Positions 12,907 through 34,304 of a DNA stretch of 64,000 nucleotides are shown here, one piece after another. Made by a program: the position numbers and the translations under genes. The notes under the pieces were generated by a model. It was not told where the DNA came from and searched no databases. It saw only the letters and a list, made by a program, of their open reading frames with translations. This DNA is from Methanosarcina sp. KYL-1 (GTDB lineage: Archaea > Halobacteriota > Methanosarcinia > Methanosarcinales > Methanosarcinaceae), in the NCBI RefSeq assembly GCF_024372725.1, contig NZ_VOUA01000002.1, positions 62,001-126,000 of the forward strand, in the 5' to 3' direction. How positions within the stretch are numbered: position 1 is the first letter of the stretch; every line of letters starts with the position of its first letter.

Positions 12907-12949
12907 TTAACAATTCGGCATTGTAAACCTATCAAAGGAGGAAACTATT

Positions 12950-13192
12950 CTGAGCCGGGAGAAATTGATCGAGGTTTGCCCTGTCTGCGGGAATGCGGAC
13001 CTGTATTATGAGGTAGGAGGGTATGCAGGGGCGGTCTATCACTGTAAGGAATGCGGTTATGTGGGGGCCTTCGTTGTCGAAGGCAATGAGGAAATGGTTG
13101 AGAAAATCAGGGAGAAGTATAAGAGGGAAAAGGGGAAGGAACGTGAAAAGGGAAAGGAGCATGAAAATGGGAAGGAAGAGGAAGAAAAGTAA
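12950..13192 (+). CDS. Small zinc-ribbon protein with charged tail, apparent CTG start
   Basis: This protein of about 80 residues has two Cys pairs, CPVCG and CKECG, forming a zinc ribbon in residues 8-40, and a Lys/Glu-rich low-complexity tail made of EKGKE-type repeats. Function unknown; such ribbons may bind nucleic acid or protein. The first standard start in frame is TTG at 12965, 23 bases from the strong AAAGGAGG. The codon at ideal spacing (8 bases) is CTG at 12950, reading CTG-AGC-CGG, a single-base variant of ATG-AGC-CGG. I therefore place the start there. Confidence 0.65.
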   Translation: MSREKLIEVCPVCGNADLYYEVGGYAGAVYHCKECGYVGAFVVEGNEEMVEKIREKYKREKGKEREKGKEHENGKEEEEK

Positions 13193-13440
13193 GTCAGCAA
13201 AATAATTTGCAGGTCTGCAAATATGAGATTCCTGACTTAATGGCTTTTCAAAATCTTGCAAGTAATGTTTTGCAAGTGCCCTTCCTAAAAAATTCTGCGT
13301 ATTTTTTCTTTGTTACCCGATTCTTGATCGTCTATACTCTGATTATATCAAGTTAAATTCAGTATCTGATTTGAGAACCTCATTCGGAACTAATAATTTC
13401 ATGGAATAATTATTTAACTGTTCCTGTCCTTTAAGGCATC

Positions 13441-13566
13441 ATGAGCACTATTACAAGTTCCTCTATTCTATTCATCTCGGGTGGGCATCTTCTTTTATTT
13501 TTGTTATTTTTTGTACTCTGCATCTTTTTCATTTTTTACTTATTTTACAGGAAAAAGAGAAAGTGA
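13441..13566 (+). CDS. Small single-pass membrane protein (41 aa)
   Basis: ATG to TGA encodes 41 residues: a short polar N-terminus, one long hydrophobic helix (about residues 16-35) rich in Leu and Phe, and a basic C-terminal RKKRK. This is the charge pattern of a single-span membrane protein with the C-terminus inside. There is no strong ribosome binding site and no family is recognised. A MITE begins 38 bases downstream. Confidence 0.4.
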   Translation: MSTITSSSILFISGGHLLLFLLFFVLCIFFIFYLFYRKKRK

Positions 13567-13604
13567 TATTTGCGAAATACATCTGTAATCTTTTTTATCT
13601 TTTT

Positions 13605-13719
13605 AGGACTTACGCAGTTGAGGGATGAAATCAAGCACATGCGACCTTGTAAATAGTATTGTGATTTATACAGTTAAGTGTTTTCCACTTTTGTTTTTCA
13701 GTTCAACTGCTTAAGTCCT
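13605..13719. mobile_element. MITE, 115 bp, with terminal inverted repeats and 8-bp target duplication
   Basis: The ends AGGACTTACGCAGTTGA and, inverted, AGGACTTAAGCAGTTGA match at 16 of 17 positions. The element is flanked on both sides by ATCTTTTT (13597-13604 and 13720-13727), a perfect 8-bp target-site duplication. It has no coding capacity and would need a transposase in trans. Confidence 0.85.
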
Positions 13720-14073
13720 ATCTTTTTTTTCAAAGCTACAAGGTTTTTGAATTAGTTTTTAGAGAACCGGGACTCTCACCGCCTGCTGAGTGGAGGCTTT
13801 TTCCGATAAATTGCATGAAAAGATGAAAGAATAACCGAAACGTCCATGAGAGCCGGCTGTTTTATTTACATCACTATCTTTTGATAATTTTTTATATATT
13901 TTCATAAAAAATTAACACAATGTTGATACTTTTTTACATCCCTGCGTAAAAAATTAACTGGCACTCTCATAAAAGCTAAGGTTTTTAAATGAAGCATCTC
14001 TTACTTGCAATTATTCGGAAGTTAATTTCCACCATACAGCAAATCCTGAAAAACCTCAATAAATGTGATACGC

Positions 14074-14469
14074 ATGAAACTTCGGATAGTAAGTTCTAAA
14101 GATGAAATCGAAACGTTAAAAGAAAGTGAAGAATTAATTCACCTGGCATTCAGGCCTTCCAACAAAGATTTATTCAAACTTGTTATGAGATGCCCGGATG
14201 TAAAAGCGATCCATATCCCTGCTTCATACAAGAATACCATTTCTAGCTCTGCCCAGATGTACCTCTCAATGCAGGGCATTGCCTTACTTGAAGGCGATGT
14301 ATGGGGCCACAGGAAAGACATCAGTGAATATTCAGAAATTTCTCCGCGCGTCTTTGACCGCATAAAGGAACTAAAGTCAGAAGGGCTTTTTGATCAGGGA
14401 ATTGTTGAAAGGGTTGTGGGAGAAACCAGGCTCAGCTCTGACTTCATAACTTTTATCATGTCTCTCTGA
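14074..14469 (+). CDS. DUF1699-family protein
   Basis: This 131-residue soluble protein (KLRIVSSKDEIETL at the start, LAFRPSNKDLFKL, FVM/VKAIHIPASYK in the middle) belongs by recollection to the DUF1699 family, found almost only in Methanosarcinales and of unknown function. The ATG at 14074 is preferred over a GTG nine bases upstream. It is monocistronic, with a tRNA-Pro gene on the opposite strand about 220 bases downstream. Confidence 0.65.
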   Translation: MKLRIVSSKDEIETLKESEELIHLAFRPSNKDLFKLVMRCPDVKAIHIPASYKNTISSSAQMYLSMQGIALLEGDVWGHRKDISEYSEISPRVFDRIKELKSEGLFDQGIVERVVGETRLSSDFITFIMSL

Positions 14470-14688
14470 TTTTTATAAAAAGCCTCATATTGGCCGATCA
14501 AATCCTGGTCGGCTTTCACTTTCTTTTTTCTGGTCCCGTTCTTCTTTTTTCCGGTGCTGTTCCGGGCTTCCTGAAAACAATACTATTAAGTCCGGTCTTA
14601 TAACATTCAATTCTTAAAAACAGAACTTGAGTACAGAAACACAAAAGTCAGAACTCTCTGTGAGAAAACAATTAGAAAATAAAGAGTT

Positions 14689-14766
14689 TGGTGGGGCCGC
14701 TGAGATTCGAACTCAAGTCGCAAGACCCCCAGCCTTGCAGGATGGACCAAGCTACCCTACGGCCCC
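14689..14766 (-). tRNA. tRNA-Pro (anticodon GGG)
   Basis: The minus strand folds as a tRNA: acceptor GGGGCCG/CGGCCCC, anticodon loop CTGGGGG with GGG, and T arm TTGAG-TTCGAAT-CTCAG with one G-T pair. The 3' ACCA is encoded (14689-14692). Confidence 0.93.
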
Positions 14767-14910
14767 GCAGAGTAGGTTACTTTTTCAATGGCAACTTTAG
14801 CTTACTTGCCATCGTAAACTATTGTAATCAAATATGTTGTATAAATGTATATCGGTAGAAAACTCCCCTGGCAATCTTTGAGTTATTTTTTATAAACTCC
14901 TGATTCTGCC

Positions 14911-15528
14911 TTACTGGTCCGTAGAATCGTGTTCAGAAGGGTTACTCAGGATGCTTTTTGCCCGCAGTACCCGCTGGACGATGGTAATATGGGATATCAC
15001 GGCTATCAGCGCAATAGCCCCTCCAAGCAGGCCTGCAAGGGCTCCGAAAGCCAGGATAAGCATCCTTTCCGTGCGCTCGGCAATGCCAACGGAGAGCTTC
15101 CGGCAGCCTGCGGACTCTGCACGGGCGCGGGTGTAACTTACAAGGAAAGAGCCTATCAGGGCAAAGCCTGCCCAGAGCCAGCCTTCAATCCCCAGGATGG
15201 GGGGAAGGGCGAGTTTTCCATTTACAGCCCCGGCTATGATCCCGAGGAACATCAACCCGTCGGAGTAGCGGTCGCAGACTGAGTCCAGCACCCCTCCAAA
15301 GGGTGTGATGATGCCCTTTGCTCTTGCGACTCCCCCGTCCAGCATGTCAAAGACTCCACTGAAGAGGATCAGGAGCCCTCCTTCAAAAGGCCTGCCCAGG
15401 GCAAATGCCGCCCCTGCAACCACACTTACCGCAAAACCCAGGAGGGTAAGGGTGTTTGGGGAAAGGGGGACCTTGCGGGCAAGGGGAGTTATTCTCTCTC
15501 TTACGCTGGTTTTCAGCTCATTGAGTAT
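14911..15528 (-). CDS. CDP-alcohol phosphatidyltransferase (archaeal lipid head-group synthesis)
   Basis: This integral membrane enzyme transfers an alcohol phosphate to a CDP-activated archaeal lipid; archaetidylinositol-phosphate synthase is the most likely activity. The family signature D-x2-DG-x2-AR-x8-G-x3-D-x3-D is complete (FDMLDGGVARA, then GGVLDSVCDRYSD). Five or six membrane helices are seen. GTG at 15429 would cut off the conserved N-terminus. The frame is open to a stop at 15558, and the stretch LNELKTSVRERITPLARK just upstream looks like genuine protein. No ATG, GTG or TTG opens it; the codon at correct spacing from AAGGAAGGG is ATA at 15528, which I take as the start. Confidence 0.75.
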   Translation of the reverse strand: MLNELKTSVRERITPLARKVPLSPNTLTLLGFAVSVVAGAAFALGRPFEGGLLILFSGVFDMLDGGVARAKGIITPFGGVLDSVCDRYSDGLMFLGIIAGAVNGKLALPPILGIEGWLWAGFALIGSFLVSYTRARAESAGCRKLSVGIAERTERMLILAFGALAGLLGGAIALIAVISHITIVQRVLRAKSILSNPSEHDSTDQ

Positions 15529-15738
15529 TTCAATCCCTTCCTTGAATCTCGAATGTCAATATGGATATTGAATCCTGAATGTCTATATGGATATTGAATT
15601 ACTAATACTGAACATTGCATTTTCGGATATTTGCCTTTGCCTTCCCTGGAAGATTGGTTGTGGCCGCAAGGCCTTTAAATAATTCATGGCGGGATTCCGA
15701 TAAACTTTTGAAGGGAGAATTTGTCTGAGAAGTAGATA

Positions 15739-15871
15739 CTTAAATTCTGACATTCTTAAGTTCTGAAGTCTTGATATTCTTAAGTTCTGAAGTCTTGATA
15801 TTCTTAAGTTCTGAAGTCTTGATATTCTTAAGTTCTGAAGTCTTGATATTCTAAAGTTCTGAATTCCTGAT
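15739..15871. repeat. Tandem repeat, 24 bp x 5
   Basis: Five copies of a 24-bp unit starting ATTCTTAAGTTCTGAAG begin at 15752, 15776, 15800, 15824 and 15848 (the last degenerate), with a partial unit before. They fill the space just upstream of the HdrD-like gene, whose ATG is at 15885. Confidence 0.9.
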
Positions 15872-15884
15872 ATGGAGTTAAAAA

Positions 15885-17033
15885 ATGGATATAGTAAATG
15901 AGCACAGGGAAAAGTGCACACAATGCGGGCAGTGCCTGGAAGTATGCCCGCGCTATGAAGATCTCGGTTTAATTGAAAGCTTATACGGGTACCTTGAGGG
16001 GAAATCGGAAATCGAGCCTGATGCCCTGTTCCGCTGCCTGACCTGCGGACTGTGCGCCGGGGCCTGCCCTGAGGAACTGGGCATCAAGATGCTAATCTCT
16101 CCTGCCCGGCAGAAATGGGTGGGGGAAAAGGGGCTTTCCGACAGGCAGACAATGGTTGACCCTGATGCTGAGAATAATATCTTTAAAAAGATTGCCGAAA
16201 TGGGGGAAGTCTCCTCATACAGGGACGGCCCTGGTTCTGTAGTCTATTTCCCGGGCTGTGCCGGGACTTACATCAACACAAACATGGCAAAGGCGACAGT
16301 TGCATTGCTGAATAAAGCCGGGGTCGATTATACGGTCCTGAGCGGGCTTGACTACTGCTGCGGGGCCGTATCCGCAGGGGCAGGAAACCCGGGCCCGATC
16401 CTCAGGCACGGACAGAAGAACATCGGAGAAGTCCGGAAGAGAGGGGCAAAAGTCCTGATAACGGCCTGTCCCGGCTGCTTCAAGGCTTTTAAGGACATCT
16501 ATCCGAAAATGTTCGGGAACCTGGATTTCGAGGTCCTGCAGGTCTCCCAGTACCTGGAGCGCCTGATTGAAGAAGGCAAACTTGCCCCAAAAACAGCTCT
16601 CATAAACAGGGTCTTTTATCACGACCCCTGCCATCTGACGCGAGGGATGGGGGTGTACCGGGAAGCAAGAAATGTACTGGAAAAAATCCCGGGCACGGAA
16701 CTTGCCAACAGGACCCCTGAAAACTCGGCCTGCTGCGGGTTCGGGGGTGGGGTCAGGGTCAACTATCCCTCCGAGTCCCTGTCCGTAGCTTCGGACCGTT
16801 ACAGGGCTGCGGAAAAACTGGGCTGCGAAGTAATCATTACAAACTGCGGCGGCTGCATGCAGAACCTTGTCGAAGCCGGAAAAGATGAGAAAATCGAGGT
16901 CTTTGACCTTGCCGAATACCTTGCCAGGGCTTTCGGAATAAATGTCGAGCGGGATGACCGGAAAATGCTGGAACAGGTCAACAGGGTTTATAGGCTCTGT
17001 ATTTCGGGTTATGAAAGGGTTGATTCCCCGTGA
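15885..17033 (+). CDS. hdrD2: HdrD-like iron-sulfur protein
   Basis: This 382-residue protein has the plan of the catalytic HdrD subunit of heterodisulfide reductase. Two 4Fe-4S ferredoxin motifs come first (CTQCGQCLEVCP at about 11-22 and CLTCGLCAGACP at about 51-62), then two cysteine-rich CCG domains (DYCCGAVSAG and CCGFGGGV, each with a downstream Cys motif such as NCGGC). In Methanosarcina HdrDE reduces CoM-S-S-CoB using methanophenazine. This copy has no membrane partner gene here. A paralog next to methylamine genes is called hdrD2 in M. acetivorans as I recall; the symbol is tentative. Other members of the family are GlcF-like oxidoreductase subunits. SD GGAG precedes the ATG. Confidence 0.8.
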   Translation: MDIVNEHREKCTQCGQCLEVCPRYEDLGLIESLYGYLEGKSEIEPDALFRCLTCGLCAGACPEELGIKMLISPARQKWVGEKGLSDRQTMVDPDAENNIFKKIAEMGEVSSYRDGPGSVVYFPGCAGTYINTNMAKATVALLNKAGVDYTVLSGLDYCCGAVSAGAGNPGPILRHGQKNIGEVRKRGAKVLITACPGCFKAFKDIYPKMFGNLDFEVLQVSQYLERLIEEGKLAPKTALINRVFYHDPCHLTRGMGVYREARNVLEKIPGTELANRTPENSACCGFGGGVRVNYPSESLSVASDRYRAAEKLGCEVIITNCGGCMQNLVEAGKDEKIEVFDLAEYLARAFGINVERDDRKMLEQVNRVYRLCISGYERVDSP

Positions 17034-17138
17034 ATTTTTTCCTGTAAGCTCTTTCCCTTGAACTATGTGCCCTGGATCGTAAAAGGGCGTAACAGGATGT
17101 AAAAGGACAACCTTTGTTCAGCCAGGGTTCTATATTGA

Positions 17139-17236
17139 ATCTCTTTTACATCTCTTTTACACCTCTGGACCTTTCAGAGGATATCGGATCTCTTTTACGC
17201 CTCTTTACACCTCTGGATATTTCGGAGGTTGTCCGG
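17139..17236. repeat. Direct repeat of a hairpin unit, 49 bp x 2
   Basis: Two adjoining units (17139-17187 and 17188-17236) each read ATCTCTTTTAC, then a pyrimidine-rich stretch, then a hairpin such as CCTCTG-GACCTTT-CAGAGG. The second hairpin keeps pairing with changed bases (CCTC and GAGG). They lie between the HdrD-like gene and the methylamine operon promoter and may act in termination. Confidence 0.65.
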
Positions 17237-17655
17237 TTCCCGGCCCAGGGATCCTATATATATTCTTTTTGTTTTTTTTGATTATAGAGGGTCTTTGCAG
17301 GTCATGAACCTCCTGAAAGAAGATTTTCGAAGCACTGGAAAAAATAACCCTCTCTTTTTTAAGCTTCAAAATGGAACTATGGGTGTAAAATCAAAGTCGG
17401 GAGAGCGATGTTCTGTAAGGGACTGAAAAAGGAACTGAAAAGAAATGAAATCTTCCTGATCCATATCTTCCTGCGGTTTTTAAAAAAGAATATTTTCCCC
17501 TTTTCCTGTTTTTCTTCCCCTAAAGTTCTATTTTAATAGCTTGTATTTATATTTTCTGTTTTGTCTCCCCGGTTTTTCCTCAAACGACTTTCTATAAATC
17601 CTTATTACCAAAAACTATTTATAGAACCCCTATTTTCGTCGTCTCCTTTTCAAAA

Positions 17656-17667
17656 AAATATTTATAC
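17656..17667 (+). promoter_or_regulatory. TATA box of the mtbC-mttB-mttC operon
   Basis: AAATATTTATAC preceded by a purine-rich AAAA tract is the best archaeal TATA/BRE match upstream of mtbC. It predicts transcription from about 17690, giving a leader of roughly 340 bases. Confidence 0.55.
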
Positions 17668-17689
17668 CAGAAAAATGAACTCTAGTTTG

Positions 17690-18032
17690 GAGACATCTGT
17701 GTAATTGAGTTGAATTCCGGGAATAAAAATGGCACTTTACGAAATTCCCTCAACTCCGAAACTCGTGAACCCCATATCCGATGATCATGGTCCTCATTCA
17801 TGGTGATCATGGACTCCCACCCATGGTGATCATGCGCTGATCATGAGTTGTCCTCATGTCCTCGTAGCTCCCACTAATGAGACACATGAGTTTGTAACCC
17901 TCTTGGTCATTGATAATCGTGATATTTGTGAGACGCATTAGCTTATGCTCTCTTCCATCATGGTGAATCGTGATGATCATGGGTTTTGGGAAGTCTCCTG
18001 ATATTTGTTAAAAATAAAACGGAGGATGCATT
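17690..18032 (+). promoter_or_regulatory. Long 5' untranslated leader of mtbC with repeated TGATCA palindromes
   Basis: There is no reading frame of interest. The palindrome TGATCA occurs five times (17782, 17804, 17827, 17838, 17974), mostly within ATGGTGATCATG-like contexts, along with related CATGAG/CTCATG elements that can pair with one another. Long leaders are known for methyltransferase genes of Methanosarcina; control by this leader is inference. Confidence 0.5.
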
Positions 18033-18674
18033 ATTAGCAACGAAGAATTGCTTCAGGAACTTGCAAGCGCTGTAGTCTCTTGCAAGAAGGATACGGTGCT
18101 CGCTGCCGTGGAGAAGGCAAAAGGGGTACTTGATCCCTCCGAAATCATTGAAAAAGGACTTGCAGCAGGTATGAATGAAGTGGGCGTTCTCTTCGAGAGA
18201 GGCAAACTTTTCTTACCCCACGTGATGATGGCTGCTGACGCAATGACTGCCGGAGTTGCAGCCCTGGATGACCTCATGCCTGAAGGCTCTGCCAGCTCGA
18301 AAATGGGCGTTATTGTGAACGGTACCGTGGAAGGCGATGTCCATGACATCGGGAAATCCATCGTATCCACCATGCTCCAGTCCGCTGGTTTTGAAGTATA
18401 TGACATCGGCCGTGATGTCCCGATCAAGAACTTTGTCGAAAAGGCAAAGGAAGTCAACGCTAACATGATCGGGCTTTCCGCTCTTATGACCACCACCCTG
18501 CCCGGCCAGAGGGACGTTATCGAACTCCTGAAGGAAGAGGGGCTCAGGGAAAAGGTAAAGGTCATGATCGGAGGCGCTCCGGCTACCCAGGCCTGGGCTG
18601 ACAAAATCGGTGCAGACTGCTATGCTGAAAACGCAAGCGAAGCTGTTACCAAAGCAAAAGAACTGCTCTTGTAA
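18033..18674 (+). CDS. mtbC: Dimethylamine corrinoid protein MtbC, apparent ATT start
   Basis: MtbC carries the methyl group from dimethylamine (MtbB) to the methylcobalamin:CoM methyltransferase MtbA. The N-terminal helical cap runs to about residue 90. The cobalamin domain has [13 protein letters not shown] with D-x-H-x-x-G giving the lower-axial histidine, then SALMTTT and [16 protein letters not shown]. Identification as MtbC rather than MttC rests on gene order and overall sequence. The first standard start, TTG at 18048, would delete residues and lies far from GGAGG (18021-18025). At 7-base spacing is ATT-AGC at 18033, a one-base variant of ATG-AGC, taken as start; this gives 213 residues. 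mttB follows after 26 bases. Confidence 0.88.
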
Positions 18675-18700: not shown

Positions 18701-20188
18701 ATGGCAAAATGTAATGCAAATGCAGGATTCAACGCACTTAACGGTGTGGAATTAAACCTTTTTACGAATGACGAACTTAAGGCAATTCACTACGCCTCTA
18801 TGGAAGTTCTGATGGACCCCGGTGTCCAGGTCTCTGACCCGGAAGCCAGGCAGATCTTCAAGGAAAATGGCTGTGAAGTTGACGAGAAGACTCAAATTGT
18901 AAAGATCCCTGAATATCTCGTAAGGAGAGCCCTTCAGCTCGCTCCCTCCAGGTTTGTCCTCTGGGGCCGCGACAAGAAGTACAACACCGTACAGGAGTCC
19001 GGCGGTAAGGTTCACTGGACCTGCTTCGGTACCGGTGTCAAGATGTGCAAGTTCCAGGACGGCAAGTACGTAACCGTTGACTCCGTGGAACAGGACATCG
19101 CAGACATCGCAAAGCTTTGTGACTGGGCAGAAAACATCGACTACTTCTCCCTCCCGGTGTCCGCAAGGGACATTGCAGGCCAGGGTGCCCAGGACGTCCA
19201 CGAGACCTTTACTCCTCTTACCAACACTGCAAAACACTTCCACCACATTGACCCCGTCGGCGAAAACGTCGAATACTACTGGGACATCGCAAAAGCCTAC
19301 TACGGCGGCGACGAAGAAGAAGCCAGGAAGAAGCCTATCTTCTCCATGCTCCTCTGCCCGACCAGCCCGCTCGAGCTCAGTGTCAACGCTTGCCAGGTCA
19401 TCATTAAGGGTGCCCGCCTCGGTATCCCCGTAAACGTCCTGAGTATGGCAATGTCCGGTGGATCCTCTCCTGTATACCTTGCAGGAACCCTTGTGACCCA
19501 CAATGCCGAAGTCCTCTCCGGTATCACCCTCGCCCAGCTCACAGTACCCGGAACCAAAGTCTGGTACGGAAGTTCCACCACCACCTTCGACCTGAAGAAG
19601 GGTACTGCGCCCGTCGGATCTCCCGAACTCGGCCTGATCAGCGCATCCGTCGCAAAGCTCGCCCAGTTCTATGGCCTCCCCGCATTCGTGGCAGGCACCT
19701 AGTCTGATGCAAAGGTCCCGGACGACCAGGCTGGACACGAGAAGACCATGACCTGCCTCCTTCCCGCCCTCGCAGGGGCAAACACCCTCTACGGCGCCGG
19801 GATGCTTGAGCTTGGTATGACCTTCTCCATGGAACAGCTCGTTATTGACAACGATATCATCAAGATGACCAAGAAGGCTCTGCAGGGAGTCCCTGTCAAT
19901 GAGGAAACCCTCGCAGTCGAGTCTATCCAGAAAGTCGGCATCGGAAACAACTTCCTCGCTCTCAAACAGACCAGGCAGCTTGTGAACTACCCCTCCGACC
20001 CCATGCTCATCGACAGGCGCATGTTCGGTGACTGGGCAGCAGCCGGCGCAAAGGACCTTGCAACCGCTGCACACGAAAAGGTCGTAGACGTTCTCAAGAA
20101 CCACGTAGTTAAACCAATCGATGCAGACATCCTCAAGGACATGAAGGCAGTTGTCGACAGAGCTGACAAAGCCTTCAGAGGCATGTAA
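18701..20188 (+). CDS. mttB: Trimethylamine methyltransferase MttB with pyrrolysine
   Basis: MttB demethylates trimethylamine and methylates the Co(I) corrinoid of MttC. The reading frame is interrupted at 19700-19702 by TAG, codon 334, within VAGT-TAG-SDAKVPD, and continues without other stops to TAA at 20186-20188. The total of 495 codons is the usual MttB length. In this family the amber is decoded as pyrrolysine, whose imine ring binds the substrate amine. Annotation that stops at 19702 would wrongly give a truncated protein plus a second fragment. SD GGAGG lies ahead of the ATG. mttC follows after 32 bases. Confidence 0.97.
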
Positions 20189-34040: not shown

Positions 34041-34304
34041 AGCTAGTAGTATATTTCGATTGTATTAATACTTATTTAATTCTTTTTGATATTTATTAAA
34101 ATAATTATGATTTTTCCGATATTATTTCTTACTTTTTGCGAATGCTTGATTATTTATGCTGAAAAATTATTATGCTTGTTATTCTAGTTGCACATTTGAA
34201 CCGTGCTGCATCATATTTAAGATATTTGATTTCTGCCGCATTTATCGCCACGGCAACTATATTCGCTTTTTCTCTTTTCCCGGAGATCCCTATTTTTTAA
34301 ACTT

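Follow-up and report, generated by a model that had tools for sequence, protein, structure and literature searches.

Among bacterial genes, infC and pcnB carry a conserved AUU start codon behind a Shine-Dalgarno (SD) sequence, and the IF3 gene (infC) regulates itself through its AUU start. The likeness to the locus described here lies in mtbC, where AUU is likewise a conserved start behind an SD; infC-type self-regulation, however, involves a gene for a fidelity factor, whereas the genes of the present study are ordinary metabolic genes whose products were identified as a corrinoid protein, a CDP-alcohol transferase and a zinc-ribbon protein. In Methanosarcina mazei, the start of the same gene, mtbC (MM_1687), was shifted 138 nt, or 46 codons, upstream on the basis of Ribo-seq and of a reporter product that was ~4.8 kDa larger (PMC11549558). 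For M. mazei mtbC specifically, initiation has thereby been demonstrated 138 nt 5' of the formerly annotated start, and the section of that paper dealing with the gene names neither the codon as non-canonical nor its conservation. Within the same genus, CTG starts were assigned by Ribo-seq to 5 % of the unannotated small ORFs (sORFs) of M. mazei (PMC11456600), a case that resembles ours in its CTG starts and small proteins, although the authors warn that M. mazei Ribo-seq lacks codon resolution; unlike here, the passages on these sORFs do not mention AUU, AUA, AUC or ACG. For the orthologues of HVO_1510 in haloarchaea, peptides before the first canonical start led to CTG or slippage being suspected (PMC8305020), but the relevant passage presents this as a single case, which lies in another class, and does not settle the start. 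Chloroplast non-AUG starts are also evolutionarily conserved and there have an effect on expression, but they belong to the chloroplast translation system, and AUG, UUG, GUG and CUG were the codons compared in the part of the study relevant here (PMC9845219). No report naming AUU, AUA, AUC or ACG as an archaeal start codon was found in the part of the literature that was covered, and earlier reports may exist.

Our study examined a window of 64,000 nt from Methanosarcina sp. KYL-1 (the whole stretch of DNA analysed), in which a preliminary description had placed three genes at one-base variants of ATG, at 18033, 15528 and 12950. The three codons were found at these positions when the sequence was reread, and the observation of three non-AUG starts was confirmed: the position of the codons, their conservation, the onset of coding at them and the lack of other starts were all observed directly. 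We consider it highly probable that the three genes are translated from the near-cognate starts AUU, AUA and CUG. The preliminary description also attributed a strong SD to each gene, which is correct for mtbC (GGAGG) and the zinc-ribbon gene (AGGAGG), but not for the transferase, where the candidate stretch, AAGGAAGGG, is weak and offers a match of 4 nt.

The gene for the dimethylamine corrinoid protein MtbC lies at 18033..18674 on the plus strand, directly 5' of mttB, and passes the MtbC family model NF041607 at 383 bits against a curated cut-off of 350. Its reading frame opens at 18018, with no ATG, GTG or TTG between there and the ATT start codon (18033..18035), which is followed by AGC and preceded, with a gap of 7 nt, by the SD at 18021..18025; a 5-nt SD match was found in 23/23 orthologues. 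All three genes were searched in all 30 genomes of the genus, and ATT was found at the mtbC start in 26/26 Methanosarcina orthologues (23/23 counted plus L118, L123 and L128), a count that omits four paralogues with ATG starts (L027, L028, L029 and L033), one fragment (L030) and two distant matches (L031 and L032). A canonical codon in frame and 5' of the ATT was seen in 1 of the 23. The next canonical codon 3' in the window is a TTG at codon +5 (18048..18050), and the first in-frame ATG is codon +46 (18171..18173), a position 138 nt 3' of the ATT that is shared by 22/23 orthologues and corresponds to where the M. mazei gene was formerly annotated to begin. With the first ATG at +46 in these 22 orthologues, the experimental M. 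mazei start would coincide with the ATT, and the published 138 nt fits this assignment as judged from orthologues in its relatives.

The second gene (14911..15528, minus strand) encodes a CDP-alcohol phosphatidyltransferase that passed PF01066 (53.9 bits against a cut-off of 22). Archaetidylinositol phosphate synthase is its nearest family, for which it scored 163.6 bits in NF040950 against a cut-off of 180, and PF01066 was the only model passed. Its start codon is ATA (15526..15528, minus strand), the weak SD-like stretch lies at 15535..15543 on the same strand, and a 4-nt match was present in 25/27 orthologues. The ATH class is kept across the genus, with ATA in 14, ATC in 12 and ATT in 1 of 27 orthologues, from which L061, L062 and L063, each either a fragment or a second member of the family, are omitted, and ATG occupies the homologous site in two other genera. 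A canonical codon in frame and 5' of the start occurred in a single orthologue of the 27, and in two genomes (L056 and L059) a TAA stands directly 5' of the ATC. The first canonical codon 3' is a GTG at 15423 in the window and is scattered from +11 to +79 across the 27 orthologues. The family search gave a match in 98 genomes, and in one tree of 71 of them the start codons were ATG in 29 (27 of g11 and 2 of g14), ATA in 22, ATC in 13 and ATT in 7. The tree holds 8 changes of the exact codon and 2 changes between ATG and non-ATG, which is no departure from chance, and avoidance of a third-base G was rejected on these counts. On the same tree, the transferase of the window's genome (L034) clusters with genus g5 (L192–L195) and not with its own genus, g1. 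Tandem repeats of 26 nt (2.2 copies, 15542–15599) lie immediately 5' of the transferase start and others of 24 nt (5.2 copies, 15748–15873) lie between divergent genes; a tRNA-Pro (GGG) gene is located at 14689–14766 on the minus strand.

The third gene (12950..13192, plus strand) encodes, judging from its sequence, a small protein with two cysteine pairs (CPVCG and CKECG), for which profile searches returned no family above its cut-off. It begins with CTG-AGC (start codon 12950..12952), 8 nt behind the AGGAGG at 12936..12941, and its next canonical codon in the window is a TTG at 12965. The start was CTG in 24, ATG in 3 and TTG in 1 of 28 orthologues, 4 of which have an in-frame canonical codon 5' of it. 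In 21/28, the next canonical codon 3' is an ATG at +48, past both cysteine pairs. Beyond the genus, g4 and g5 have either CTG or TTG at the start and g9 has TTG (L092–L097, L101 and L102), and in the other genera the N-terminus differs or is longer.

To locate the onset of coding, the synonymous share, defined as the fraction of codon differences that are synonymous, was compared between codons -5 to -1 and codons +1 to +5. It rose from 0.20 to 0.60 in mtbC, from 0.13 to 0.52 in the transferase and from 0.14 to 0.43 in the zinc-ribbon gene, and the test was calibrated on 38 ordinary genes with a canonical start and an SD, in which it rose from 0.08 to 0.35. The coding signature therefore begins at the odd codons, as the share jumps there just as it does at ordinary starts. 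In the genome of the window, 16/20 ordinary starts of the GAGG type have an SD gap of 6 to 9 nt, and the gaps of 7 and 8 nt at the two strong SDs therefore represent the usual spacing. Neither a canonical start 5' of the odd codon (exceptions in 1/23, 1/27 and 4/28 orthologues of mtbC, the transferase and the zinc-ribbon gene, respectively) nor a conserved one 3' of it was found. The column also behaves as a start codon in that ATG, TTG or ACG replace CTG, ATH and ATT in relatives, for instance ATG or TTG for CTG in 4/28 zinc-ribbon genes and ATG for ATH in 29/71 transferases. An automatic test for a near-cognate codon plus SD was not significant on its own, as it also picks out 202 of 26801 internal columns, or ~0.17 per search window of 23 columns.

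How common such starts are was estimated in a survey of 203 kb, made up of the window and two more segments of its chromosome, which were compared with the regions syntenic to them in 9 to 12 genomes. Of 122 conserved ORF families, 7 were dropped for weak third-position bias. Among the 115 kept, the start column was canonical in 89, near-cognate codons only were seen in 4 and neither in 22. One near-cognate call, at 34153 of region B, was false, the likely start (ATG or GTG) lying downstream, and the transferase, which had fallen among the 22, was added by eye. This left 4 genuine cases, 21 families without an assigned start and 1 false call, and near-cognate starts accordingly amount to 4/93 resolved genes in the 203 kb, namely mtbC, the zinc-ribbon gene, the transferase and a gene for an MMPL/HAE3-like transporter. 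The last lies outside the window (G000:C2:202632, L268 position 18132) and has a conserved ATT start, with ATT in 28 and ATC in 1 of the 29 genes of the genus. In 21/29 the open frame extends no more than four codons 5' of the ATT, and a canonical codon lies 5' in 3/29. The synonymous share is 0.17 at +1 to +5 and 0.62 from +6 on, and because it climbs only from codon +6 the position of this start is less well defined.

Members of the three families were sought in 111 genomes of 14 genera, and the start regions of 20 zinc-ribbon genes, 20 transferases and 20 mtbC genes were examined, in addition to all 27 transferases of g11 and 22 mtbC copies from 11 genomes of g7. The 20 mtbC regions from other genera had ATT in 7 (L212–L217 and L223), ACG in 4 and ATG in 8, the remaining one being a paralogue (L231) with an ATG one codon earlier. 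In the four g5 genomes L212–L215, an ATG that overlaps the SD lies in frame, five codons 5' of the ATT, which weighs against the ATT start. In g7, 21 of the 22 mtbC copies start with ACG, a codon that genetic code 11 does not list as a start, and GGAGGTT precedes these copies. Against the ACG starts, seven of the 21 (L339, L340, L342, L344, L348, L351 and L352) have a frame that is open above the ACG and a canonical codon at least 12 codons 5' in it, L355 has three canonical codons upstream and the other 13 have none. The lone ATG-started copy (L346) comes from a genome that also carries two ACG copies. These ACG starts go beyond what the preliminary description had claimed. Its proposal of more frequent near-cognate initiation in this archaeon than has been assumed is backed by the 26, 27 and 28 orthologues, the fourth gene and the mtbC data from M. 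mazei. It had also called for the start codons of orthologues to be compared; the same codon class was kept at the same place in 26/26, 27/27 and 28/28 orthologues, and its other suggestion, that the bases are wrong, is refuted by this result.

Assembly errors that conceal true ATG starts have a negligible probability, as separate assemblies, several of them single-contig, share the codon class in 23/23, 27/27 and 28/28 orthologues. It is very unlikely that translation begins at a canonical codon further downstream, leaving the conserved stretch 5' of that codon untranslated. In mtbC, the TTG at +5 could serve in this way in 15/23 orthologues, the window included, in which it is the first canonical codon, but it is missing in the other 8 and none of the 13 genomes in the survey alignment has an SD 5' of it. 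In the other two genes the next candidate stands at +48 in most zinc-ribbon genes and varies in place between +11 and +79 in the transferases, and the stretch that would be skipped evolves like coding DNA. In the case of M. mazei mtbC, the larger reporter speaks against the ATG at +46 (PMC11549558). Alternatively, ribosomes might begin at an ATG that lies out of frame across the mtbC SD (GGAGGATG) and arrive in the mtbC frame by frameshifting, or terminate at the overlapping TAG and reinitiate at the ATT. Most mtbC genes of the genus do have ATG-CAN-NNT-TAG 5' of the start, and in many MMPL genes an ATG opens a frame that is closed by a TAA sharing bases with the ATT. However, the mini-ORF is missing at mtbC of L010, L018, L019, L223 and the g7 ACG copies, as well as at the MMPL loci L357, L369, L374, L382, L385 and L386, and its ATG leaves no room for an SD; since several lineages lack the ATG, coupling and frameshifting were rejected, and we regard this route as quite improbable. 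Editing of ACG to AUG occurs in plastids, and a similar conversion of the odd codons before translation would restore ordinary starts; a single conversion would, however, have to yield AUG from AUU, AUC, AUA, CUG and ACG, and to our knowledge no known base conversion does so, leaving RNA editing with a very remote chance. Editing was also considered as a rival explanation for the chloroplast starts (PMC9845219).

Near-cognate initiation might equally be real and serve no regulatory purpose, initiation being good enough and the codons drifting among tolerated triplets, a possibility to which we assign a little less than an even chance. The wandering third base of the transferase, with its chance-like ratio of codon changes, is consistent with drift, as is the operon context of mtbC, which does not separate ATT from ATG copies, since the ATG-started L033 also precedes mttB. 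Against drift, ATT is kept in 26/26 mtbC and 28/29 MMPL genes within the genus, although switches toward AUG are favoured in prokaryotes (PMC5622118). The control and induction of mtbC by trimethylamine sit at the transcript level (PMC11549558), which argues against a damping purpose.

Archaeal initiation has been described as depending on an SD helix that positions the codon and on aIF1, which opposes non-AUG codons (PMC6237735, PMC8211752). The SD helix would set the near-cognate codon in the P site, strongly in mtbC and the zinc-ribbon gene and weakly in the transferase, and initiator Met-tRNA with aIF2 would accept one mismatch at position 1 (CUG) or position 3 (AUU, AUA and AUC), so that the protein would begin with methionine. 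A mismatch at position 2 (ACG) may serve mtbC likewise in the sister genus, and the near-cognate state is probably old and maintained in the Methanosarcinaceae. Decoding as methionine and a role for aIF1 are what we infer from these arrangements, and for the purpose a lowered or aIF1-sensitive initiation rate seems most likely; lower or aIF1-dependent output is the putative purpose we favour, roughly in balance with mere tolerance. Damped or regulated expression is plausible as a candidate role, and the interpretation given in the preliminary description is partly supported. A broader proposal, that the Methanosarcinaceae employ much of the one-mismatch set (AUU, AUA, AUC, CUG and ACG) to start a few per cent of their genes, as a conserved translational control through aIF1 and start-codon stringency, is tentative and in our opinion somewhat doubtful.

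Several specific forms of control were rejected. SUI1 (aIF1) was found in 29/30 genomes of the genus, one copy each except for a weak second match in G008, and an infC-like control of aIF1 was discarded because its gene starts at ATG in the three loci read (L417, L419 and L420). A helper hairpin near the codon was not indicated by four 81-nt folds (z = 1.41, -1.68, -0.56 and -0.12), none of which was unusual. Operon stoichiometry, in which ATT would be confined to mtbC copies followed by the UAG-containing mttB, found no support because the ATG copy L033 in the same genome also precedes mttB and the g7 ACG copies do not.

Gene finders limited to ATG, GTG and TTG truncate or overlook such genes, and according to the published correction the old annotation of M. 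mazei mtbC was short by 46 residues (PMC11549558). Should near-cognate starts serve a few per cent of the genes throughout an archaeal family, archaeal start-codon stringency would become directly testable in genetically tractable methanogens, and natural ATT, ACG and ATG versions of one gene are on hand for comparison.

The surroundings of mtbC have features of their own. An Rfam scan of 17400–18100 gave nothing above threshold and one weak sub-threshold match. The leader (17729–18030) contains repeated GATCATG motifs with long inverted repeats, together with short ORFs that are kept in many genomes, one MAPKTLPL-like and ~248 nt before the ATT, the other MNPNQ-like and ~213 nt before it, which may be the two sORFs described in M. 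mazei. Downstream, mttB contains an in-frame TAG at 19700–19702, presumably its usual pyrrolysine codon.
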